Positions 27,807 through 34,127 of a stretch of 64,000 nt of DNA are shown here, piece after piece (the first letter of the stretch is position 1; each line of letters begins with the position of its first letter). Made by a program: the position numbers and the translations under genes. The notes beneath the pieces are model-generated. The model searched no databases. It was not told the DNA's origin and saw nothing but the letters and a program-made list of their open reading frames with translations. The stretch comes from Streptomyces sp. S.PB5 (lineage in GTDB: Bacteria > Actinomycetota > Actinomycetes > Streptomycetales > Streptomycetaceae), in NCBI RefSeq assembly GCF_030403745.1, contig NZ_JAQMWP010000003.1, positions 1-64,000 of the forward strand. The letters are read 5' to 3'.

Positions 27807-27963
27807 TGCAATGAAAGGCTAGACAGCGGGAACGCCTTCATTAGACTGGCTCTGCCGCACCTTCTCCTGCGGTGCATCCTGGTGTGCTCATGCATGGCCG
27901 GGTATGTGTTGGATTAACCCCGTGTGTTACCCCACACCCTCTGAGCCAAGGACCGTGATCGAC

Positions 27964-29079
27964 GTGAAGGTCGGCATCCCCCGCGAGGTCAAGAACAACG
28001 AGTTCCGGGTGGCCATCACCCCCGCCGGTGTGCATGAGCTGGTGCGCCACGGCCACCAGGTCTTCATCGAGCACAACGCCGGTGTCGGCTCGTCGATCCC
28101 GGACGGCGAGTACGTCGCCGCGGGCGCCCGGATCCTGGACACGGCCGACGAGGTGTGGGCCACCGCCGATCTGCTGCTCAAGGTCAAGGAGCCCATCGCC
28201 GAGGAGTACCACCGCCTCCGCAAGGACCAGACGCTCTTCACCTACCTGCACCTGGCCGCCTCCAAGGAGTGCACCGACGCGCTCATCGAGTCCGGCACCA
28301 CCGCGATCGCCTACGAGACGGTCGAGCTGCCCTCCCGCGCGCTGCCGCTGCTCGCCCCGATGTCCGAGGTCGCGGGTCGGCTCGCCCCGCAGGTCGGCGC
28401 CTACCACCTGATGCGCTCGGTCGGCGGCCGCGGTGTGCTGCCCGGCGGTGTCCCCGGCACCCAGCCCGCGCGTGCCGTCGTCATCGGCGGCGGTGTCTCC
28501 GGCTGGAACGCCACCCAGATCGCCGTCGGCATGGGCTTCCACGTCACGCTGCTCGACCGCGACATCAACAAGCTGCGCGAGGCCGACAAGGTCTTCGGCA
28601 CCAAGGTCCGGGCGATCATGTCCAACTCCTTCGAGCTGGAGAAGGCCGTCCTGGACGCCGACCTCGTCATCGGCGCGGTGCTCATCCCGGGCGCCAAGGC
28701 CCCGAAGCTGGTCACCAACGAGCTGGTCGCCCGGATGAAGCCGGGAAGTGTCCTTGTCGACATCGCGATCGACCAGGGCGGCTGCTTCGAGGACTCCCGT
28801 CCCACCACGCACGCCGAGCCGACCTTCCAGGTCCACGACTCGGTCTTCTACTGCGTCGCCAACATGCCCGGCGCGGTGCCCAACACCTCCACCTACGCGC
28901 TCACCAACGCGACGCTGCCGTACATCGTGGAGCTGGCCAACCGGGGCTGGGTCGAGGCGCTGCGCCGTGACCCCGCGCTCGCCAAGGGCCTCAACACCCA
29001 TGACGGCAAGGTCGTTTACAAGGAGGTCGCGGAGGCGCACGGCCTGGAGCACATCGAGCTGGAGACGCTCCTCGGCTGA
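27964..29079 (+). CDS. ald: Alanine dehydrogenase
   Basis: 371 residues, the usual family length. It begins VKVGIPREVKNNEFRVAITPAGV and has the NAD-binding loop VVIGGGVSGWNA near residue 175. It interconverts alanine and pyruvate plus ammonia. GTG 27964 aligns with the family start and has AAGGA 11 nt upstream; GTG 27955 is too close to that site. TAGACT (27842-27847) is a possible -10, which predicts a leader of ~110 nt. Confidence 0.95.
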   Translation: MKVGIPREVKNNEFRVAITPAGVHELVRHGHQVFIEHNAGVGSSIPDGEYVAAGARILDTADEVWATADLLLKVKEPIAEEYHRLRKDQTLFTYLHLAASKECTDALIESGTTAIAYETVELPSRALPLLAPMSEVAGRLAPQVGAYHLMRSVGGRGVLPGGVPGTQPARAVVIGGGVSGWNATQIAVGMGFHVTLLDRDINKLREADKVFGTKVRAIMSNSFELEKAVLDADLVIGAVLIPGAKAPKLVTNELVARMKPGSVLVDIAIDQGGCFEDSRPTTHAEPTFQVHDSVFYCVANMPGAVPNTSTYALTNATLPYIVELANRGWVEALRRDPALAKGLNTHDGKVVYKEVAEAHGLEHIELETLLG

Positions 29080-29449
29080 GCCTGAGGACGACCGGAGGGT
29101 TAAGTCACCTTTTCGTAAAGGCGATACGTCAACAAGGCGTGTCAACCACTCGCACACGGCCGGACCTTGCCCGACAAGGTCCGGCCAGATGTGTGTATGG
29201 TCACTTTGCGACGCTCGGTCAACTCGCCTCGAACGTAACCCTTTGGTCGATTCGCACACCGGTGAAACCTGCCGTGCGACGGCCGTACGCCCTTGACAGC
29301 GCGATGTTTGATTGCCGACACATCCTGCCGGGTCCGGCGGATTGTGTTGCTGTGAACACCCGACACGCCATAGAGTCGCCAACCGTCGGCATGGTGCCAC
29401 GCTGACCTTGTCTAGAAGTTTCCTGGTCACCAAGGAGGTAAGACGACTT
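29080..29449. other. 370-bp spacer between ald and parA
   Basis: Contains a perfect 12-bp hairpin listed separately as the ald terminator. A TTGACA-like -35 at 29293-29298 lies upstream of parA, but no matching -10 is clear. No parS-like GTTTCACGTGAAAC site is seen. No gene. Confidence 0.6.
29158..29186 (+). terminator. Hairpin terminator after ald
   Basis: GGCCGGACCTTG (29158-29169) and CAAGGTCCGGCC (29175-29186) form a perfect 12-bp stem with a 5-nt loop. There is no T-tract, which is common in Streptomyces terminators. Confidence 0.7.
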
Positions 29450-30628
29450 GTGAATGAGTCGACATTTACTCCCGGGGGTGGTCAACCAGGAATGCCTGCA
29501 CGGGCCGAGGGCCCCGCGGGGTTCGAGGCTGTCGGCTCCGTCGCGGTGCGCACCTTCGCAGCCCACCAGAGTCACCAGAACTCCCGAGTGACTCTGTCAG
29601 CACACCAGAGCATGGATGGCCATCACGTGAACGCCATGGCCGGCGACGGAAGTGGCGCGCCCCACAACCAGTTCGCCGACTACGACGAACTGCCCGAGGG
29701 GCACTTCTACGACCCCGACGCCGAGTACGAGCCCGACCCCGAATACGCGGCCACGCTCGCTCCCGACGCTGCCCGCCAGCGCCGTGAGCGCATCGGCCCT
29801 ACCGGTCGCCCGCTGCCGTACTTCCCGATCCCGGGTCCGCTGACCGATCACGGACCCGCGAAGATCATCGCGATGTGCAACCAGAAGGGCGGCGTCGGCA
29901 AGACCACGTCGACCATCAACCTGGGTGCCGCGCTCGCGGAGTACGGCCGTCGTGTGCTGCTCGTGGACTTCGACCCGCAGGGCGCGCTGTCGGTGGGTCT
30001 CGGTGTCAACCCGATGGAGCTCGACCTCACCGTCTACAACCTGCTCATGGAGCGGGGCATGGCGGCCGACGAGGTCCTGCTGAAGACCGCGGTCCCCAAC
30101 ATGGACCTGCTGCCGAGCAACATCGACCTGTCGGCGGCGGAGGTCCAGCTGGTCTCCGAGGTCGCGCGCGAGTCGACGCTGCAGCGGGCGCTCAAGCCGC
30201 TGATGGCCGACTACGACTACATCGTGATCGACTGCCAGCCCTCGCTGGGCCTGCTCACCGTCAACGCGCTGACGGCCGCGCACAAGGTGATAGTGCCTCT
30301 GGAGTGTGAGTTCTTCGCGCTGCGCGGTGTCGCCCTGCTGACGGAGACCATCGAGAAGGTCCAGGAGCGGCTCAACCCGGAGCTGGAGCTCGACGGGATC
30401 CTCGCCACGATGTACGACTCGCGCACGGTCCACAGCCGCGAGGTGCTGGCCCGTGTGGTCGAGGCGTTCGACGACCACGTCTACCACACGGTCATCGGCC
30501 GCACGGTCCGCTTCCCGGAGACCACGGTCGCCGGTGAGCCGATCACCACGTACGCCTCCAACTCCGTCGGCGCCGCCGCCTACCGCCAGCTCGCCAGGGA
30601 GGTGCTCGCCCGGTGTCACGCCGAGTGA
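29450..30628 (+). CDS. ParA/Soj-family ATPase (second-type, beside scpAB)
   Basis: 392 residues. A ~140-residue N-terminal extension (acidic, Pro- and Tyr-rich) precedes the ParA core: deviant Walker A KGGVGKTTS (K146 to T152 and after), VLLVDFDPQGALS, and DYIVIDCQPSLGLLTVNAL. GTG 29450 has a full AAGGAGGT site at 10-nt spacing. This is the ParA paralogue that actinobacteria carry next to scpAB, distinct from the oriC parAB pair; no parB follows. Its stop overlaps the next start as GTGA. Confidence 0.88.
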   Translation: MNESTFTPGGGQPGMPARAEGPAGFEAVGSVAVRTFAAHQSHQNSRVTLSAHQSMDGHHVNAMAGDGSGAPHNQFADYDELPEGHFYDPDAEYEPDPEYAATLAPDAARQRRERIGPTGRPLPYFPIPGPLTDHGPAKIIAMCNQKGGVGKTTSTINLGAALAEYGRRVLLVDFDPQGALSVGLGVNPMELDLTVYNLLMERGMAADEVLLKTAVPNMDLLPSNIDLSAAEVQLVSEVARESTLQRALKPLMADYDYIVIDCQPSLGLLTVNALTAAHKVIVPLECEFFALRGVALLTETIEKVQERLNPELELDGILATMYDSRTVHSREVLARVVEAFDDHVYHTVIGRTVRFPETTVAGEPITTYASNSVGAAAYRQLAREVLARCHAE

Positions 30629-31194
30629 GTCTGCCGGGGGCCGACGAACTCTTCCGTACGACAGGGGGAATGGCGCTCCAGCCGTCCACTCCGCGACGGG
30701 GGGCCAACGGCGAAGCCCGGGTCCCCGCGCCGGCCGGAGAGAGCGACGGGGCCGCGGCCGTGTCGCCCGAGGACGCGCCGCAGTCGGTGCCCGCACAGGG
30801 CGGCGACGGCGACGGGGCGGAGCATGTGGCGACGGAGCCCGCCGCGGCCGGTGAGTCCCGCAGCCGGGACGCGGCGGCGGAGCGCTCCGGGCGACGTCAG
30901 GACGCGCAGGAAGGTTCTGCCGCGACCGGGGCCGCGCCGCGTAAGCAGCGTGGTGGTGGCAGGGCCGCTTCCCGGCGGCCCAGCGGGCGTGAGCGGCACG
31001 ACGAGAAGATCACCGTGTACGTCTCCGCCGAGGAGCTCATGGATCTGGAGCACGCGCGTCTGGTGCTCCGGGGTGAGCACGGGCTGGCCGTCGACCGCGG
31101 GCGGATCGTCCGTGAGGCGGTCGCCGTGGTGCTGGCCGATCTGGAGTCCCGGGGAGACGCGAGCATCCTCGTACGCCGGCTGCGCGGGCGGTAG
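30625..31194 (+). CDS. Putative ribbon-helix-helix DNA-binding protein with disordered N-terminus
   Basis: 189 residues. Residues ~1-125 are Ala/Gly/Glu-rich and disordered with a basic patch (PRKQRGGGRAASRRPSGR). The C-terminal ~65 residues read KITVYVSAEELMDLEHARL...GLAVDRGRIVREAVAVVLADLE, which looks like a beta strand and two helices of an RHH (MetJ/Arc) fold; this is a pattern judgement. The GTG at 30625 overlaps the parA stop by 4 bp. Lying between parA and scpA, it may be the DNA-binding partner of this ParA. Confidence 0.72.
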   Translation: MSLPGADELFRTTGGMALQPSTPRRGANGEARVPAPAGESDGAAAVSPEDAPQSVPAQGGDGDGAEHVATEPAAAGESRSRDAAAERSGRRQDAQEGSAATGAAPRKQRGGGRAASRRPSGRERHDEKITVYVSAEELMDLEHARLVLRGEHGLAVDRGRIVREAVAVVLADLESRGDASILVRRLRGR

Positions 31195-31212
31195 CGGTAG
31201 CCTGCGGGGGCC

Positions 31213-32217
31213 ATGACCTCGAACGACGTTCCCCTCTCCGGCGCAGCTGCCGGTCGTCGGCGTGCGCTGGGCCGGGGGCCGGGGGCTGAGCCGGTGGCCG
31301 AGGTCGTGGCTCCGGCTGAGGCCGGTGGGCACAACGGCGGCCAGTCGAACGAAGAGCCGCCGGCTGCAGAACCGCCGGAGCCCGCGCCCGCCGAGCCGCA
31401 GGAACCCGACGACGGTGTCTTCAAGGTTCGGCTCGCCAACTTCGAAGGGCCCTTCGATCTTCTCCTCCAGCTGATCTCCAAGCACAAGCTGGACGTCACC
31501 GAGGTCGCCCTCTCCAAGGTCACCGACGAGTTCATGGCGCACATCAGGGCCATGGGACCGGACTGGGACCTCGACCAGACGACCGAGTTCCTCGTCGTCG
31601 CCGCGACTCTCCTCGACCTCAAGGCCGCCCGGCTCCTGCCCTCCGCCGAGGTCGAGGACGAAGCCGACCTCGCCCTTCTCGAAGCACGCGACCTGCTCTT
31701 CGCGCGGCTGCTCCAGTACCGCGCGTACAAACAGATCGCGGACATCTTCAACCAGCGGCTCGACGAAGAGGCCCGCCGCTATCCCCGTACCGTCGGGCTC
31801 GAACCGCATCACGCCGAGCTGCTGCCCGAGGTCGTCATCAGCATCGGCCCGGAGGGGTTCGCGAAGCTCGCCGTCAAGGCGATGCAGCCGAAGCCCAAGC
31901 CGCAGGTGTACGTCGATCACATCCACGCGCCGCTCGTCAGTGTGCAGGAGCAGGCCGGGATCGTCGTCGCGCGGCTGAAGGAGCTCGGCGAGGCCAGCTT
32001 CCGGGCGCTGGTCGAGGACACCGACGACACCCTGACCGTCGTGGCGCGCTTCCTGGCGCTGTTGGAGCTGTACCGGGAGAAGGCCGTCGCCCTCGACCAG
32101 GAGACCGCCCTCGGGGATCTCATCGTGCGGTGGACCGGCGGAGAGGGCGACGCCGAGCCGATGGTGACCGACGAGTTCGACCGACCGCCCGAGCCGCCCA
32201 AGGAGGACAAGGCGTGA
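31213..32217 (+). CDS. scpA: Segregation and condensation protein A
   Basis: 334 residues. The kleisin N-domain VRLANFEGPFDLLLQLISKHKLDVTEVALSKVTDEFM begins near residue 75 after an Ala/Glu/Pro-rich leader. The C-terminal winged helix binds the SMC head. A TAGCCT element (31198-31203) could give an additional promoter just before the ATG. The stop overlaps scpB (GTGA). Confidence 0.95.
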   Translation: MTSNDVPLSGAAAGRRRALGRGPGAEPVAEVVAPAEAGGHNGGQSNEEPPAAEPPEPAPAEPQEPDDGVFKVRLANFEGPFDLLLQLISKHKLDVTEVALSKVTDEFMAHIRAMGPDWDLDQTTEFLVVAATLLDLKAARLLPSAEVEDEADLALLEARDLLFARLLQYRAYKQIADIFNQRLDEEARRYPRTVGLEPHHAELLPEVVISIGPEGFAKLAVKAMQPKPKPQVYVDHIHAPLVSVQEQAGIVVARLKELGEASFRALVEDTDDTLTVVARFLALLELYREKAVALDQETALGDLIVRWTGGEGDAEPMVTDEFDRPPEPPKEDKA

Positions 32218-32879
32218 GCGAGGAGACCACCGACGTCCCGGCCGGGCTGCGTACCGTCGCCGACCTCGATCTCAAGCCCGCCCTGGAAGCCGTGCTCATG
32301 GTCGTGGACGAGCCGGCGACCGAGGAGCATCTCTCCAAGATCCTCCAGCGGCCCAAGCGGCAGATCGCGGACGCGCTGCGGGAGCTGGCCGACGAGTACA
32401 CCGTGCAGGGGCGCGGATTCGAGCTGCGGCTCATCGCGGGCGGGTGGCGGTTCTACAGCCGGCCCGAGTTCGCGGCGGCCGTCGAGGGCTTCGTCCTGGA
32501 CGGGCAGCAGGCCCGGCTCACGCAGGCCGCGCTGGAGACGCTCGCGGTCGTCGCCTACCGGCAGCCGGTGAGCCGCAGCCGGGTCTCGGCCGTCCGCGGA
32601 GTCAACTGTGACGGGGTCATGCGGACCCTGCTGCAGCGCGGTCTGGTCCAGGAGACGGGCACGGAACCCGAAACAGGTGCGATCCTGTACACGACGACGA
32701 ACTATTTCCTGGAGCGGATGGGCCTGCGCGGTCTGGACGAGCTCCCGGAGCTCGCGCCCTTTCTCCCGGAGGCGGAGGCGATCGAGGCCGAGACCCAGGA
32801 AGGGGTTCCGTCGTTCGACCCGGACGCCCCCGATGACGGCCCGGGCGCCCACGACGGACATACGACGACGGAAATGTGA
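32214..32879 (+). CDS. scpB: Segregation and condensation protein B
   Basis: 221 residues. Two winged-helix domains with LKPALEAVLMVVDEPATEEHL, LTQAALETLAVVAYRQPVSRSRVSAVRG and TTTNYFLERMGLRGLDELPEL, all typical of ScpB. It completes the SMC-ScpAB condensin. GTG 32214 has AAGGAGG upstream inside scpA. The acidic C-terminal tail is not part of the core. The stop TGA shares its A with the rluB ATG. Confidence 0.95.
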   Translation: MSEETTDVPAGLRTVADLDLKPALEAVLMVVDEPATEEHLSKILQRPKRQIADALRELADEYTVQGRGFELRLIAGGWRFYSRPEFAAAVEGFVLDGQQARLTQAALETLAVVAYRQPVSRSRVSAVRGVNCDGVMRTLLQRGLVQETGTEPETGAILYTTTNYFLERMGLRGLDELPELAPFLPEAEAIEAETQEGVPSFDPDAPDDGPGAHDGHTTTEM

Positions 32880-34000
32880 TGCGAAGCAGCAGCGGCAGGA
32901 ACAGCAGCGGAAACAACGGCGGGAGCCGTGGTGGCAACAGCGGCGGCCGCGGCGGGAGCAGCGGTGGCCGCGGTAATTACCGCGGCGCCGGTAACTCCCG
33001 TGACGACAAGCAGGGCGGCCGGCCGAAGAAGCCGCGCCCCGAGGAGCGCCAGTACGACGTGGGCCCCGGCGCCTCTCCGCAGGGCCCGAAGTCGGGGCGC
33101 GGCGCCTCGGCGCGAGGCGGTGCCAAGGGCGGACCCAAGCAGGGCCAGAACACCGGGCGCGGCCGTTGGGTCCCGGCGACCTCCCGTGAGTACGAGGCCC
33201 GGGCCGAGGAGCGCAACCGCGAGCGGTACGCGAACAAGAAGGACGTGAAGCTGCCCAAGACCTTCCCGGGCGCCGAGCAGGAGGGCGAGCGGCTGCAGAA
33301 GATCCTCGCGCGCGCGGGCTACGGTTCGCGGCGGGCCTGCGAGGAGCTCATCGAGCAGGCGCGGGTCGAGGTCAACGGCGAGATCGTCCTGGAGCAGGGC
33401 AAGCGCGTCGACCCCGAGAAGGACGAGGTCAAGGTCGACGGTCTGACGGTCGCGACCCAGTCGTACCAGTTCTTCTCGCTGAACAAGCCGGCCGGTGTCG
33501 TCTCCACCATGGAGGACAACGAGGGCCGGCAGTGCCTCGGCGACTACGTCACCAACCGTGAGACGCGGCTCTTCCACGTCGGGCGGCTCGACACCGAGAC
33601 CGAGGGCGTCATCCTGCTCACCAACCACGGCGAGCTGGCCCACCGGCTGACCCACCCCAAGTACGGCGTGAAGAAGGTCTACCTCGCGCACATCGTGGGC
33701 CCGATCCCGCGCGACCTGGGCAAGCGGCTCAAGGACGGCATCCAGCTGGACGACGGGTACGCGCGCGCGGACCACTTCCGGGTCGTCGAGCAGACCGGCA
33801 AGAACTACCTGGTCGAGGTCACCCTCCACGAGGGCCGCAAGCACATCGTGCGCCGGATGCTGGCCGAGGCCGGCTTCCCCGTCGACAAGCTGGTCCGGGT
33901 CGCCTTCGGGCCGATCACCCTGGGCGACCAGAAGTCGGGCTGGCTGCGGCGGCTGTCCAACACCGAGGTCGGCATGCTGATGCAGGAAGTCGACCTGTAG
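32879..34000 (+). CDS. rluB: 23S rRNA pseudouridine synthase with RGG-rich N-terminal tail
   Basis: 373 residues. The first ~120 residues are a Ser/Gly/Arg/Asn-rich disordered tail; then an S4 domain (RLQKILARAGYGSRRACEELI) and the RsuA/RluB catalytic domain with GRLDTETEG (Asp238 is the nucleophile). The likely target is U2605-equivalent in 23S rRNA. E. coli RluB lacks this N-terminal tail, which is a possible RNA-binding add-on. The start ATG overlaps the scpB stop (TGATG). A hairpin terminator follows. Confidence 0.92.
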   Translation: MRSSSGRNSSGNNGGSRGGNSGGRGGSSGGRGNYRGAGNSRDDKQGGRPKKPRPEERQYDVGPGASPQGPKSGRGASARGGAKGGPKQGQNTGRGRWVPATSREYEARAEERNRERYANKKDVKLPKTFPGAEQEGERLQKILARAGYGSRRACEELIEQARVEVNGEIVLEQGKRVDPEKDEVKVDGLTVATQSYQFFSLNKPAGVVSTMEDNEGRQCLGDYVTNRETRLFHVGRLDTETEGVILLTNHGELAHRLTHPKYGVKKVYLAHIVGPIPRDLGKRLKDGIQLDDGYARADHFRVVEQTGKNYLVEVTLHEGRKHIVRRMLAEAGFPVDKLVRVAFGPITLGDQKSGWLRRLSNTEVGMLMQEVDL

Positions 34001-34016
34001 GTCCCGCTCGTACGAC

Positions 34017-34048
34017 GGCCGGTTCCGGAACTTTCTCCGGGACCGGCC
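34017..34048 (+). terminator. Terminator after rluB
   Basis: GGCCGGTTCCGG (34017-34028) and CCGGGACCGGCC (34037-34048) form a 12-bp stem with one G-U pair; GATTCGTTTTCG follows. Confidence 0.8.
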
Positions 34049-34127
34049 GATTCGTTTTCGCCCTCCCGCCGGTCTGTACCTCACATGGGCACCTCACATG
34101 GGCCTCACACAGGTGATGGGAGTGGGC

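Follow-up and report, generated by a model that had tools for sequence, protein, structure and literature searches.

A ParA2 ATPase and its conserved downstream neighbour in Streptomyces sp. S.PB5, a putative ribbon-helix-helix partner with a candidate operator

In the window analysed here, a stretch of 64,000 nucleotides from Streptomyces sp. S.PB5 (contig NZ_JAQMWP010000003.1, positions 1 to 64,000), the gene of a ParA-type ATPase, parA2, is directly followed by a small gene, rhh. We consider it moderately probable that the small protein is a ribbon-helix-helix (RHH) protein and the cognate partner of ParA2, which binds palindromic sites of the type TGTCGACA, autoregulates its operon and docks on ParA2, similar to ParG and ParF. 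The gene pair, its conservation, two conserved blocks of the small protein and a palindrome with a codon constraint at the start of parA2 are seen directly in the sequence. From these we infer an RHH fold, for which the profile evidence is good, and furthermore binding to the palindrome, contact with ParA2 and a cell-biological role. ParA2 itself belongs to the known PldP/SCO1772/Rv1708 family, and the new part is the small gene, whose position we take to be that of SCO1771. In the open-access literature searched, no mention of SCO1771 was found and, by title and abstract start, no report of an RHH partner of PldP/ParA2 or of TGTCGACA. The carriers of PldP/ParA2 include tuberculosis bacteria as well as antibiotic producers, and a partner gene that is conserved and comes with a predicted DNA site would give a handle on what drives and localises this ATPase.

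The small gene lies directly after parA2, on the same strand, in all 91 loci that we read, 70 of them in a first set and 21 in a second (L048, missed by tblastn, was placed by protein and profile searches). A fixed distance rule finds the adjacency in 90 of the 91; L233 fails it only since the alignment of the domain profile begins 59 nt before the ParA2 stop. A search with the single protein gave matches in 142 of 296 genomes of the class, at least six of which are weak (E above 1e-4), and the profile of an alignment of 46 small-protein sequences (A1) found the protein in 137 of the 296 at E up to 0.01. In a sample of the whole phylum it was found in 41 of 296 genomes, 31 of them outside the class. 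No relatives were found in viral contigs, and tblastn at E 1e-3 came back without a match from both plasmids (72,556 records) and phages (50,697 records); PHROGs yielded matches only at E 0.017 or worse.

ParA2 is a ParA-type ATPase (AAA_31, E 1.4e-62), in which a variable N-terminal extension precedes a Walker-type ParA core. It shows no sign of an N-terminal winged helix: the Pfam matches at E up to 1 include no helix-turn-helix family, and in several loci of other classes (L233-L237) the predicted protein starts right at the Walker box. The GTG start at 29450 is sound, with AAGGAGG upstream, and the VNEST start is encoded with GTG in 81 of 81 Streptomyces, rows that were selected by VNEST. 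The same genome (Streptomyces-like, 10.85 Mb) holds two further ParA-like genes, 43% and 34% identical to ParA2. According to passages of the respective papers, PldP of C. glutamicum (cg1610), ParA2/SCO1772 and Rv1708/MSMEG_3743 form one ParA2 family (PMC4255298, PMC3989709, PMC10482377), which is reported from all actinobacteria (PMC4255298) and is treated there as an orphan ParA, without a partner. The description of this family as an additional chromosomal ParA adjoining scpA fits the present locus. A preliminary description of this DNA had presented a ParA paralogue without ParB, followed by a small gene, scpA and scpB. Both statements hold: the proteins of the five cluster genes include a ParA-type ATPase and gave no match to a ParB family, and the four genes lie in this order on the + strand, with Pfam families for ParA, ScpA and ScpB.

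The same description gave the small protein 189 residues and its gene a 4-bp overlap with parA2. We regard GTG 30613 as the likeliest start, not 30625, because GGAGG lies about 10 nt upstream and the extra S-R-R is also kept in lineages with starts at a 4-nt overlap; the protein then has 193 residues and the overlap is 16 nt. Sequence searches of Pfam, NCBIfam and the PDB gave no family match. The sole PDB profile match was a designed TIM barrel with internal repeats, which we attribute to chance. Two blocks of the small protein are conserved throughout the phylum, one an N-terminal peptide and the other a domain of some 65 residues at the C-terminus; the linker between them differs in length and sequence among the relatives. 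The N-terminal block, not mentioned in the preliminary description, reads M(S/P)RR(V/A)SLPGADELFR, with the core RRxSLPGADELFR (short form RRVSLPGADELFR). In the C-terminal domain R126, H129, K132, T134, V135, Y136, E141, D161, R162, G163, R164 and R167 are invariant in all 46 sequences of A1; between families of the class its identity is about 46-83%, and its sequence hardly varies across 80 Streptomyces. In family f9 the two proposed functions appear to be naturally separated: the RHH domain is kept, the site is kept in the four checkable loci, and the peptide is gone.

The C-terminal domain is likely to have an RHH fold. Compared with genuine RHH_1 domains, a first profile of the small protein scored 16.6, the best of 40 shuffles reaching 15.5. 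A wider profile, to which other classes were added, scored 23.3 (hhalign probability 55%, 38 columns), and none of 200 column shuffles came up to this (maximum 18.1). The reference consisted of 20 domains from 9 of 40 genomes of the class, 19 of which were used since one was a near-copy; RHH_3 domains, looked for as another source, were absent from 41 genomes, and Pfam RHH_3 matched the small protein in only one of the 46 sequences (E 0.13). The profile alignment pairs strand with strand and helix B with helix B, helix A being six residues longer. The diverged member L198 has a helix B that is typical of RHH (PVTRSEVVTAALALLL). In RHH proteins alternate residues of the strand face the DNA, and in the strand KITVYVS these would be K, T and Y. 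As for the C-terminal RHH domain with a disordered tail of the preliminary description, the profile score argues for the domain, and the tail has to be given up, as the variable stretch of low complexity occupies the middle of the protein and does not follow the domain.

Next, we consider the DNA at the start of parA2. Among all 256 palindromes of 8 bp, TGTCGACA is the most enriched there (z 23.7, the next best 6.1). The exact palindrome occurs in 28 of 65 loci with the small gene (RHH-positive) and in 1 of 34 loci without it (RHH-negative), with 1.0 expected from first-order resampling; if one mismatch is allowed, as in the site AGTCGACA of this window, the numbers are 55 of 65, 14 of 34 and, for the resampled sequences, 20 of 65. 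Five rows were left out of these counts, namely L029, L031 and L064 (truncated ParA2, hence wrong stretches), L198 (diverged) and L211 (truncated). In a window of 520 bp we found exact sites in 27 of 66 RHH-positive and 1 of 34 RHH-negative loci (Fisher p 3e-5) and sites with one mismatch in 54 of 66 and 12 of 34 (p 6e-6), with five rows dropped and L198 taken as RHH-positive; both tests ignore ancestry. Of the 25 testable RHH-positive families, 14 have the exact site, nine more have it with one mismatch and two have neither. Relative to the predicted start of parA2, 41 of 69 loci have the site within the stretch from -100 to +30; the six Streptomyces in the set, whose start was missed by the prediction rule, carry it at +7. 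Upstream sites extend to GATTTGTCGACAAATC in L231 and L235. The diverged protein of L198 (L198:1337-1873) lacks K-T-Y and keeps the N-terminal peptide, and its parA2 has no TGTCGACA.

The codons used at this site point to selection at the DNA level. Sites at +7 encode Ser-Thr. Of the RHH-positive loci, 117 have this peptide, 105 from Streptomyces and 12 from elsewhere; TCG serves as the Ser codon in every one of them and ACA as the Thr codon in 116, including 11 of the 12 non-Streptomyces loci. Elsewhere in the same open reading frames only 34 of 2171 Thr codons are ACA. The four RHH-negative loci that keep the peptide use ACG, ACC, ACG and ACA, and in a hand-picked set of 17 non-Streptomyces loci with the peptide we counted ACA 15 times and ACT twice (L049, L065). 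In 81 Streptomyces many AT-ending codons are kept among the first 14, and none among 210 codons of the core. That the coding sites are a mere by-product of the peptide is disfavoured by the codon test.

A putative second site, O2, lies inside ald about 700 bp upstream of the site at parA2. Its Leu codon is CTT in 79 of 81 Streptomyces, compared with 52 of the 3213 other Leu codons of ald, and of the five AT-ending codons that are conserved among the 355 examined in ald, three fall into O2. It was not found in 27 other RHH-positive loci with ald. Possibly, O2 is a looping or remote operator. A further element, TAGAGTCGC at 29371-29379 (found as GCGACTCTA), stands upstream of parA2 in 19 of 68 RHH-positive and 0 of 36 RHH-negative loci, a sample which still includes the five unsuitable rows. 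It resembles the -10 element of a promoter, extended by GTCGC; a sigma-70 scan found no promoter.

The ParG-like layout suggests repression of the operon at TGTCGACA and activation of ParA2 turnover via RRVSLPGADELFR. A dimer of the C-terminal RHH domain would bind the palindromes at the parA2 start and repress parA2, rhh and, where they follow, scpA, scpB and rluB. The RRVSLPGADELFR peptide, on its long flexible linker, would dock on the ATP-bound ParA2 dimer and stimulate hydrolysis in the way in which ParG acts on ParF. The two proteins would then form an autoregulated switch of a ParA and its activator, tied to one chromosomal site or a few. Its likeliest service would be the role of PldP, that is, the coordination of division site and nucleoid; we consider a role of this type most likely by analogy with published work, which concerns lineages to which no RHH status is assigned.

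Several observations weigh against the proposed partnership. The N-terminal peptide is absent in family f9 (L034, L044, L063, L064, L070) and in L242, and it is degenerate in L050. Structure prediction, which the preliminary description had proposed as a check of the C-terminal domain, gave AlphaFold pLDDT (predicted local distance difference test) values of 47 when the domain was modelled by itself and 54 when the full-length protein was (16 Streptomyces sequences); the low-confidence model of the latter, with helices at 10-16, 139-152, 162-180 and 183-191, is weakly compatible with an RHH fold. Sites with one mismatch are not uncommon by chance, as the resampled sequences and the RHH-negative loci show. 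Controlling for ancestry leaves five independent pairs, a number that cannot reach significance; the site with one mismatch agrees with the presence of RHH in 3.2 of them and runs against it in 0.1. Families f39 and f42 have no site even with one mismatch, and neither have L042, L068, L069, L055, L061, L052 and L032, all of which keep K-T-Y (six of these proteins belong to A1, and L032 keeps these residues as well). Four of the five loci of f25 match TGTCGACA only with two mismatches, and the RHH-negative locus L225 retains it exactly. A wider site pattern does occur more often than its reversed control in the genome of S.PB5 (300 times against 115), but for the narrower pattern there is no genome-wide excess in RHH-positive genomes: WTGTCGACAW, with 0-39 copies per genome, has a median of 7 (n = 42), and of 9 in RHH-negative genomes (n = 38). 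Finally, no column of ParA2 separates RHH-positive from RHH-negative genomes at the limits used, and therefore ParA2 also works without an RHH partner. The unit is ParA2-RHH, and ParA2 can also live without the RHH gene; in a tree of 100 ParA2 rows the RHH state changes 10 times, with at least five changes forced by supported branches.

A simpler explanation would be that the RHH protein is an operon repressor only, acting at TGTCGACA, and that the N-terminal peptide has some other use which leaves ParA2 untouched. This agrees with a site at the start of the operon, with one or two conserved sites instead of an array, and with family f9, where the domain and an exact or one-mismatch site (four checkable loci) persist without the peptide. 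On the other hand, the peptide is conserved across the phylum, and a mere repressor need not stay by parA2 when the neighbours change. We find this explanation rather unlikely. It is also conceivable that the TGTCGACA block is an element of translation start or of another regulator, and that the RHH protein works at other places. Genes often prefer AT-rich codons at their beginning. The block does lie within the first codons in many Actinomycetes, the neighbouring codons are AT-ending as well, and some RHH-positive lineages are without the site; however, other families have the same palindrome, in its extended form in L231 and L235, ahead of the predicted start, and both the exact sites and the ACA codon go with the presence of the RHH gene. 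We think this quite improbable.

The preliminary description had seen here a possible second segregation module, coupled to ScpA and ScpB. In its full form, the site bound by the RHH protein would be a centromere that is moved by ParA2 and feeds condensin via ScpA/ScpB. The layout resembles plasmid type Ib systems, the pair is packed together with scpAB in Streptomyces and many others, and passages on the mycobacterial homologue of ParA2 (Rv1708/MSMEG_3743) report binding to both ScpA and ParB as well as an effect on division (PMC10482377; see also PMC3834876); the published contact with ScpA is that of ParA2 itself, in mycobacteria (PMC10482377). The repeated target expected of such a module was not seen: the search for a centromere array near the operon, made with this palindrome only, found one conserved site, and two in Streptomyces. 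One or two sites, together with the lack of a genome-wide excess, argue against a plasmid-like centromere and against a nucleoid-wide protein.

Moreover, the neighbourhood of scpAB is loose or missing. In five loci (L041, L051, L052, L065, L072) the pair is divergent from scpAB. Among the 20 loci fetched from other classes, scpA lies 0.1-3.8 kb downstream in 13 and outside the locus in the remaining seven, three of which are on contigs that end within about 2.3 kb; for these seven, scpA is 7-12 kb away in four (G303, G342, G364, G380) and on another contig in three. Genome G263 (L061), an assembly of 99% completeness, carries parA2-rhh-rluB without scpAB at the locus, and a search of it for ScpA at E up to 1e-6 found none. 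Conversely, ScpA is present in 74 of 80 genomes without a clear RHH match, and in 28 of the 40 loci fetched for the RHH-negative group scpA directly follows parA2. The RHH gene is missing from many genomes with parA2-scpA. In four of these 40 (L207, L216, L217, L220) parA2 was not found beside scpA, and L198, which comes from this set, holds the diverged RHH gene. Direct coupling of the pair to condensin is thus not supported, and we regard a true second segregation module as very unlikely. In another seven of the 40 RHH-negative loci (L199, L204, L205, L206, L212, L219, L225; judged by eye) a gene for a membrane protein similar to M50 (site-2) proteases stands between parA2 and scpA.

Beyond the partnership of ParA2 and the RHH protein, one may think of an ancient chromosomal ParA-RHH system of the whole phylum. 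Its equivalent of ParB would mark its own gene with TGTCGACA, and the locus would serve on a small scale as an anchor or a segregation site, which ParA2 reads and passes on to condensin or the divisome. We offer this as a tentative picture, which is on balance doubtful.

The five genes downstream of ald are all on the + strand and closely packed, with overlaps of 16, 4 and 4 nt and a single gap, of 18 nt, between rhh and scpA (Table 1). The start of scpB was set to GTG 32214 on account of the 4-nt overlap; the open reading frame opens at 32130. No terminator-like hairpin was found between the genes of the cluster in a scan that gave two in all, with 1.7 expected.

Table 1. Coordinates of the genes and predicted elements around parA2 (positions in the window)
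Feature	Position	Strand	Remarks
ald	27904-29079		precedes parA2
O2, putative second site, inside ald	28744..28764	+	exact TGTCGACA at 28755-28762; Streptomyces only
parA2	29450..30628	+	392 aa; SCO1772/PldP/Rv1708 family; from Pfam AAA_31, start with ribosome-binding site, literature name
O1, putative RHH operator, AGTCGACA	29457..29464	+	TGTCGACA with one mismatch; overlaps parA2 codons 3-5
rhh	30613..31194	+	193 aa; proposed ParA2 partner; adjoins parA2
N-terminal conserved peptide, MSRRVSLPGADELFRTT	30613..30663	+	kept across the phylum with exceptions; proposed to contact ParA2
C-terminal putative RHH domain, residues 125-193	30985..31191	+	strand KITVYVS, helix A, helix B
scpA	31213..32217	+	PF02616, E 3.5e-56; 18 nt after rhh
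scpB	32214..32879	+	PF04079, E 5.1e-51
rluB-like pseudouridine synthase gene	32876..34000	+	TIGR00093 above cut-off
Terminator-like hairpin, past the last gene	34016..34049	+	consensus match; 2 found, 1.7 expected; weak

The likeness to plasmid type Ib systems, which the preliminary description had proposed, holds in part. A Walker-type ParA without a winged helix, an adjacent downstream partner gene (in all of the loci read), an N-terminal peptide placed as in ParG and the RHH profile speak for it; a centromere made of a repeat array and a location on plasmids, the other traits of these systems, were not found for the small protein and its site. The closest comparison is ParF-ParG of plasmid TP228, where an ATPase has a partner with a flexible N-terminal part and a C-terminal RHH domain. 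As described in passages of the respective papers, the RHH domain of ParG binds operator and centromere, and its flexible, arginine-bearing N-terminal region forms a helix docked at the ParA dimer interface and stimulates the ATPase (PMC7308502, PMC5393062). To the arginine-finger-like motif of ParG would correspond the conserved basic peptide RRVSLPGADELFR, for which stimulation of the ATPase is a proposal, and to the operator that ParG binds upstream of its own genes the putative site at the parA2 start. Unlike ParF-ParG, the present pair is chromosomal, phylum-wide and often adjoining scpAB; where ParF-ParG has tetramer boxes in an array, it has a single palindrome, and its small protein has a long variable linker, a longer helix A and no sequence match in the PDB.

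Other systems are more distant. In delta-omega of plasmid pSM19035 a ParA is combined with an RHH protein whose binding sites lie in promoter regions, arranged as arrays of heptad repeats. That system is plasmid-borne and has such arrays, unlike ours, and the likeness is one of description, not of sequence. MetJ and other RHH repressors bind a short palindromic site, with K and T of the strand turned towards the bases, and in contrast to what we propose here they are without a link to a ParA ATPase. CdbA of Myxococcus xanthus is described as an RHH nucleoid protein tied to chromosome organisation (PMC7156744). It is likened to the small protein by description and not by sequence. To our knowledge, CdbA is not paired with a ParA.

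With PldP/ParA2 the present ATPase shares its family, but here and in nearly half of the sampled genomes of the class an RHH-like gene follows parA2. The pair is likely to belong to the ParA-RHH kind, as a chromosomal variant that is connected with the PldP family; if this is true, it would be the chromosomal counterpart of the ParA-RHH pairs of plasmids.

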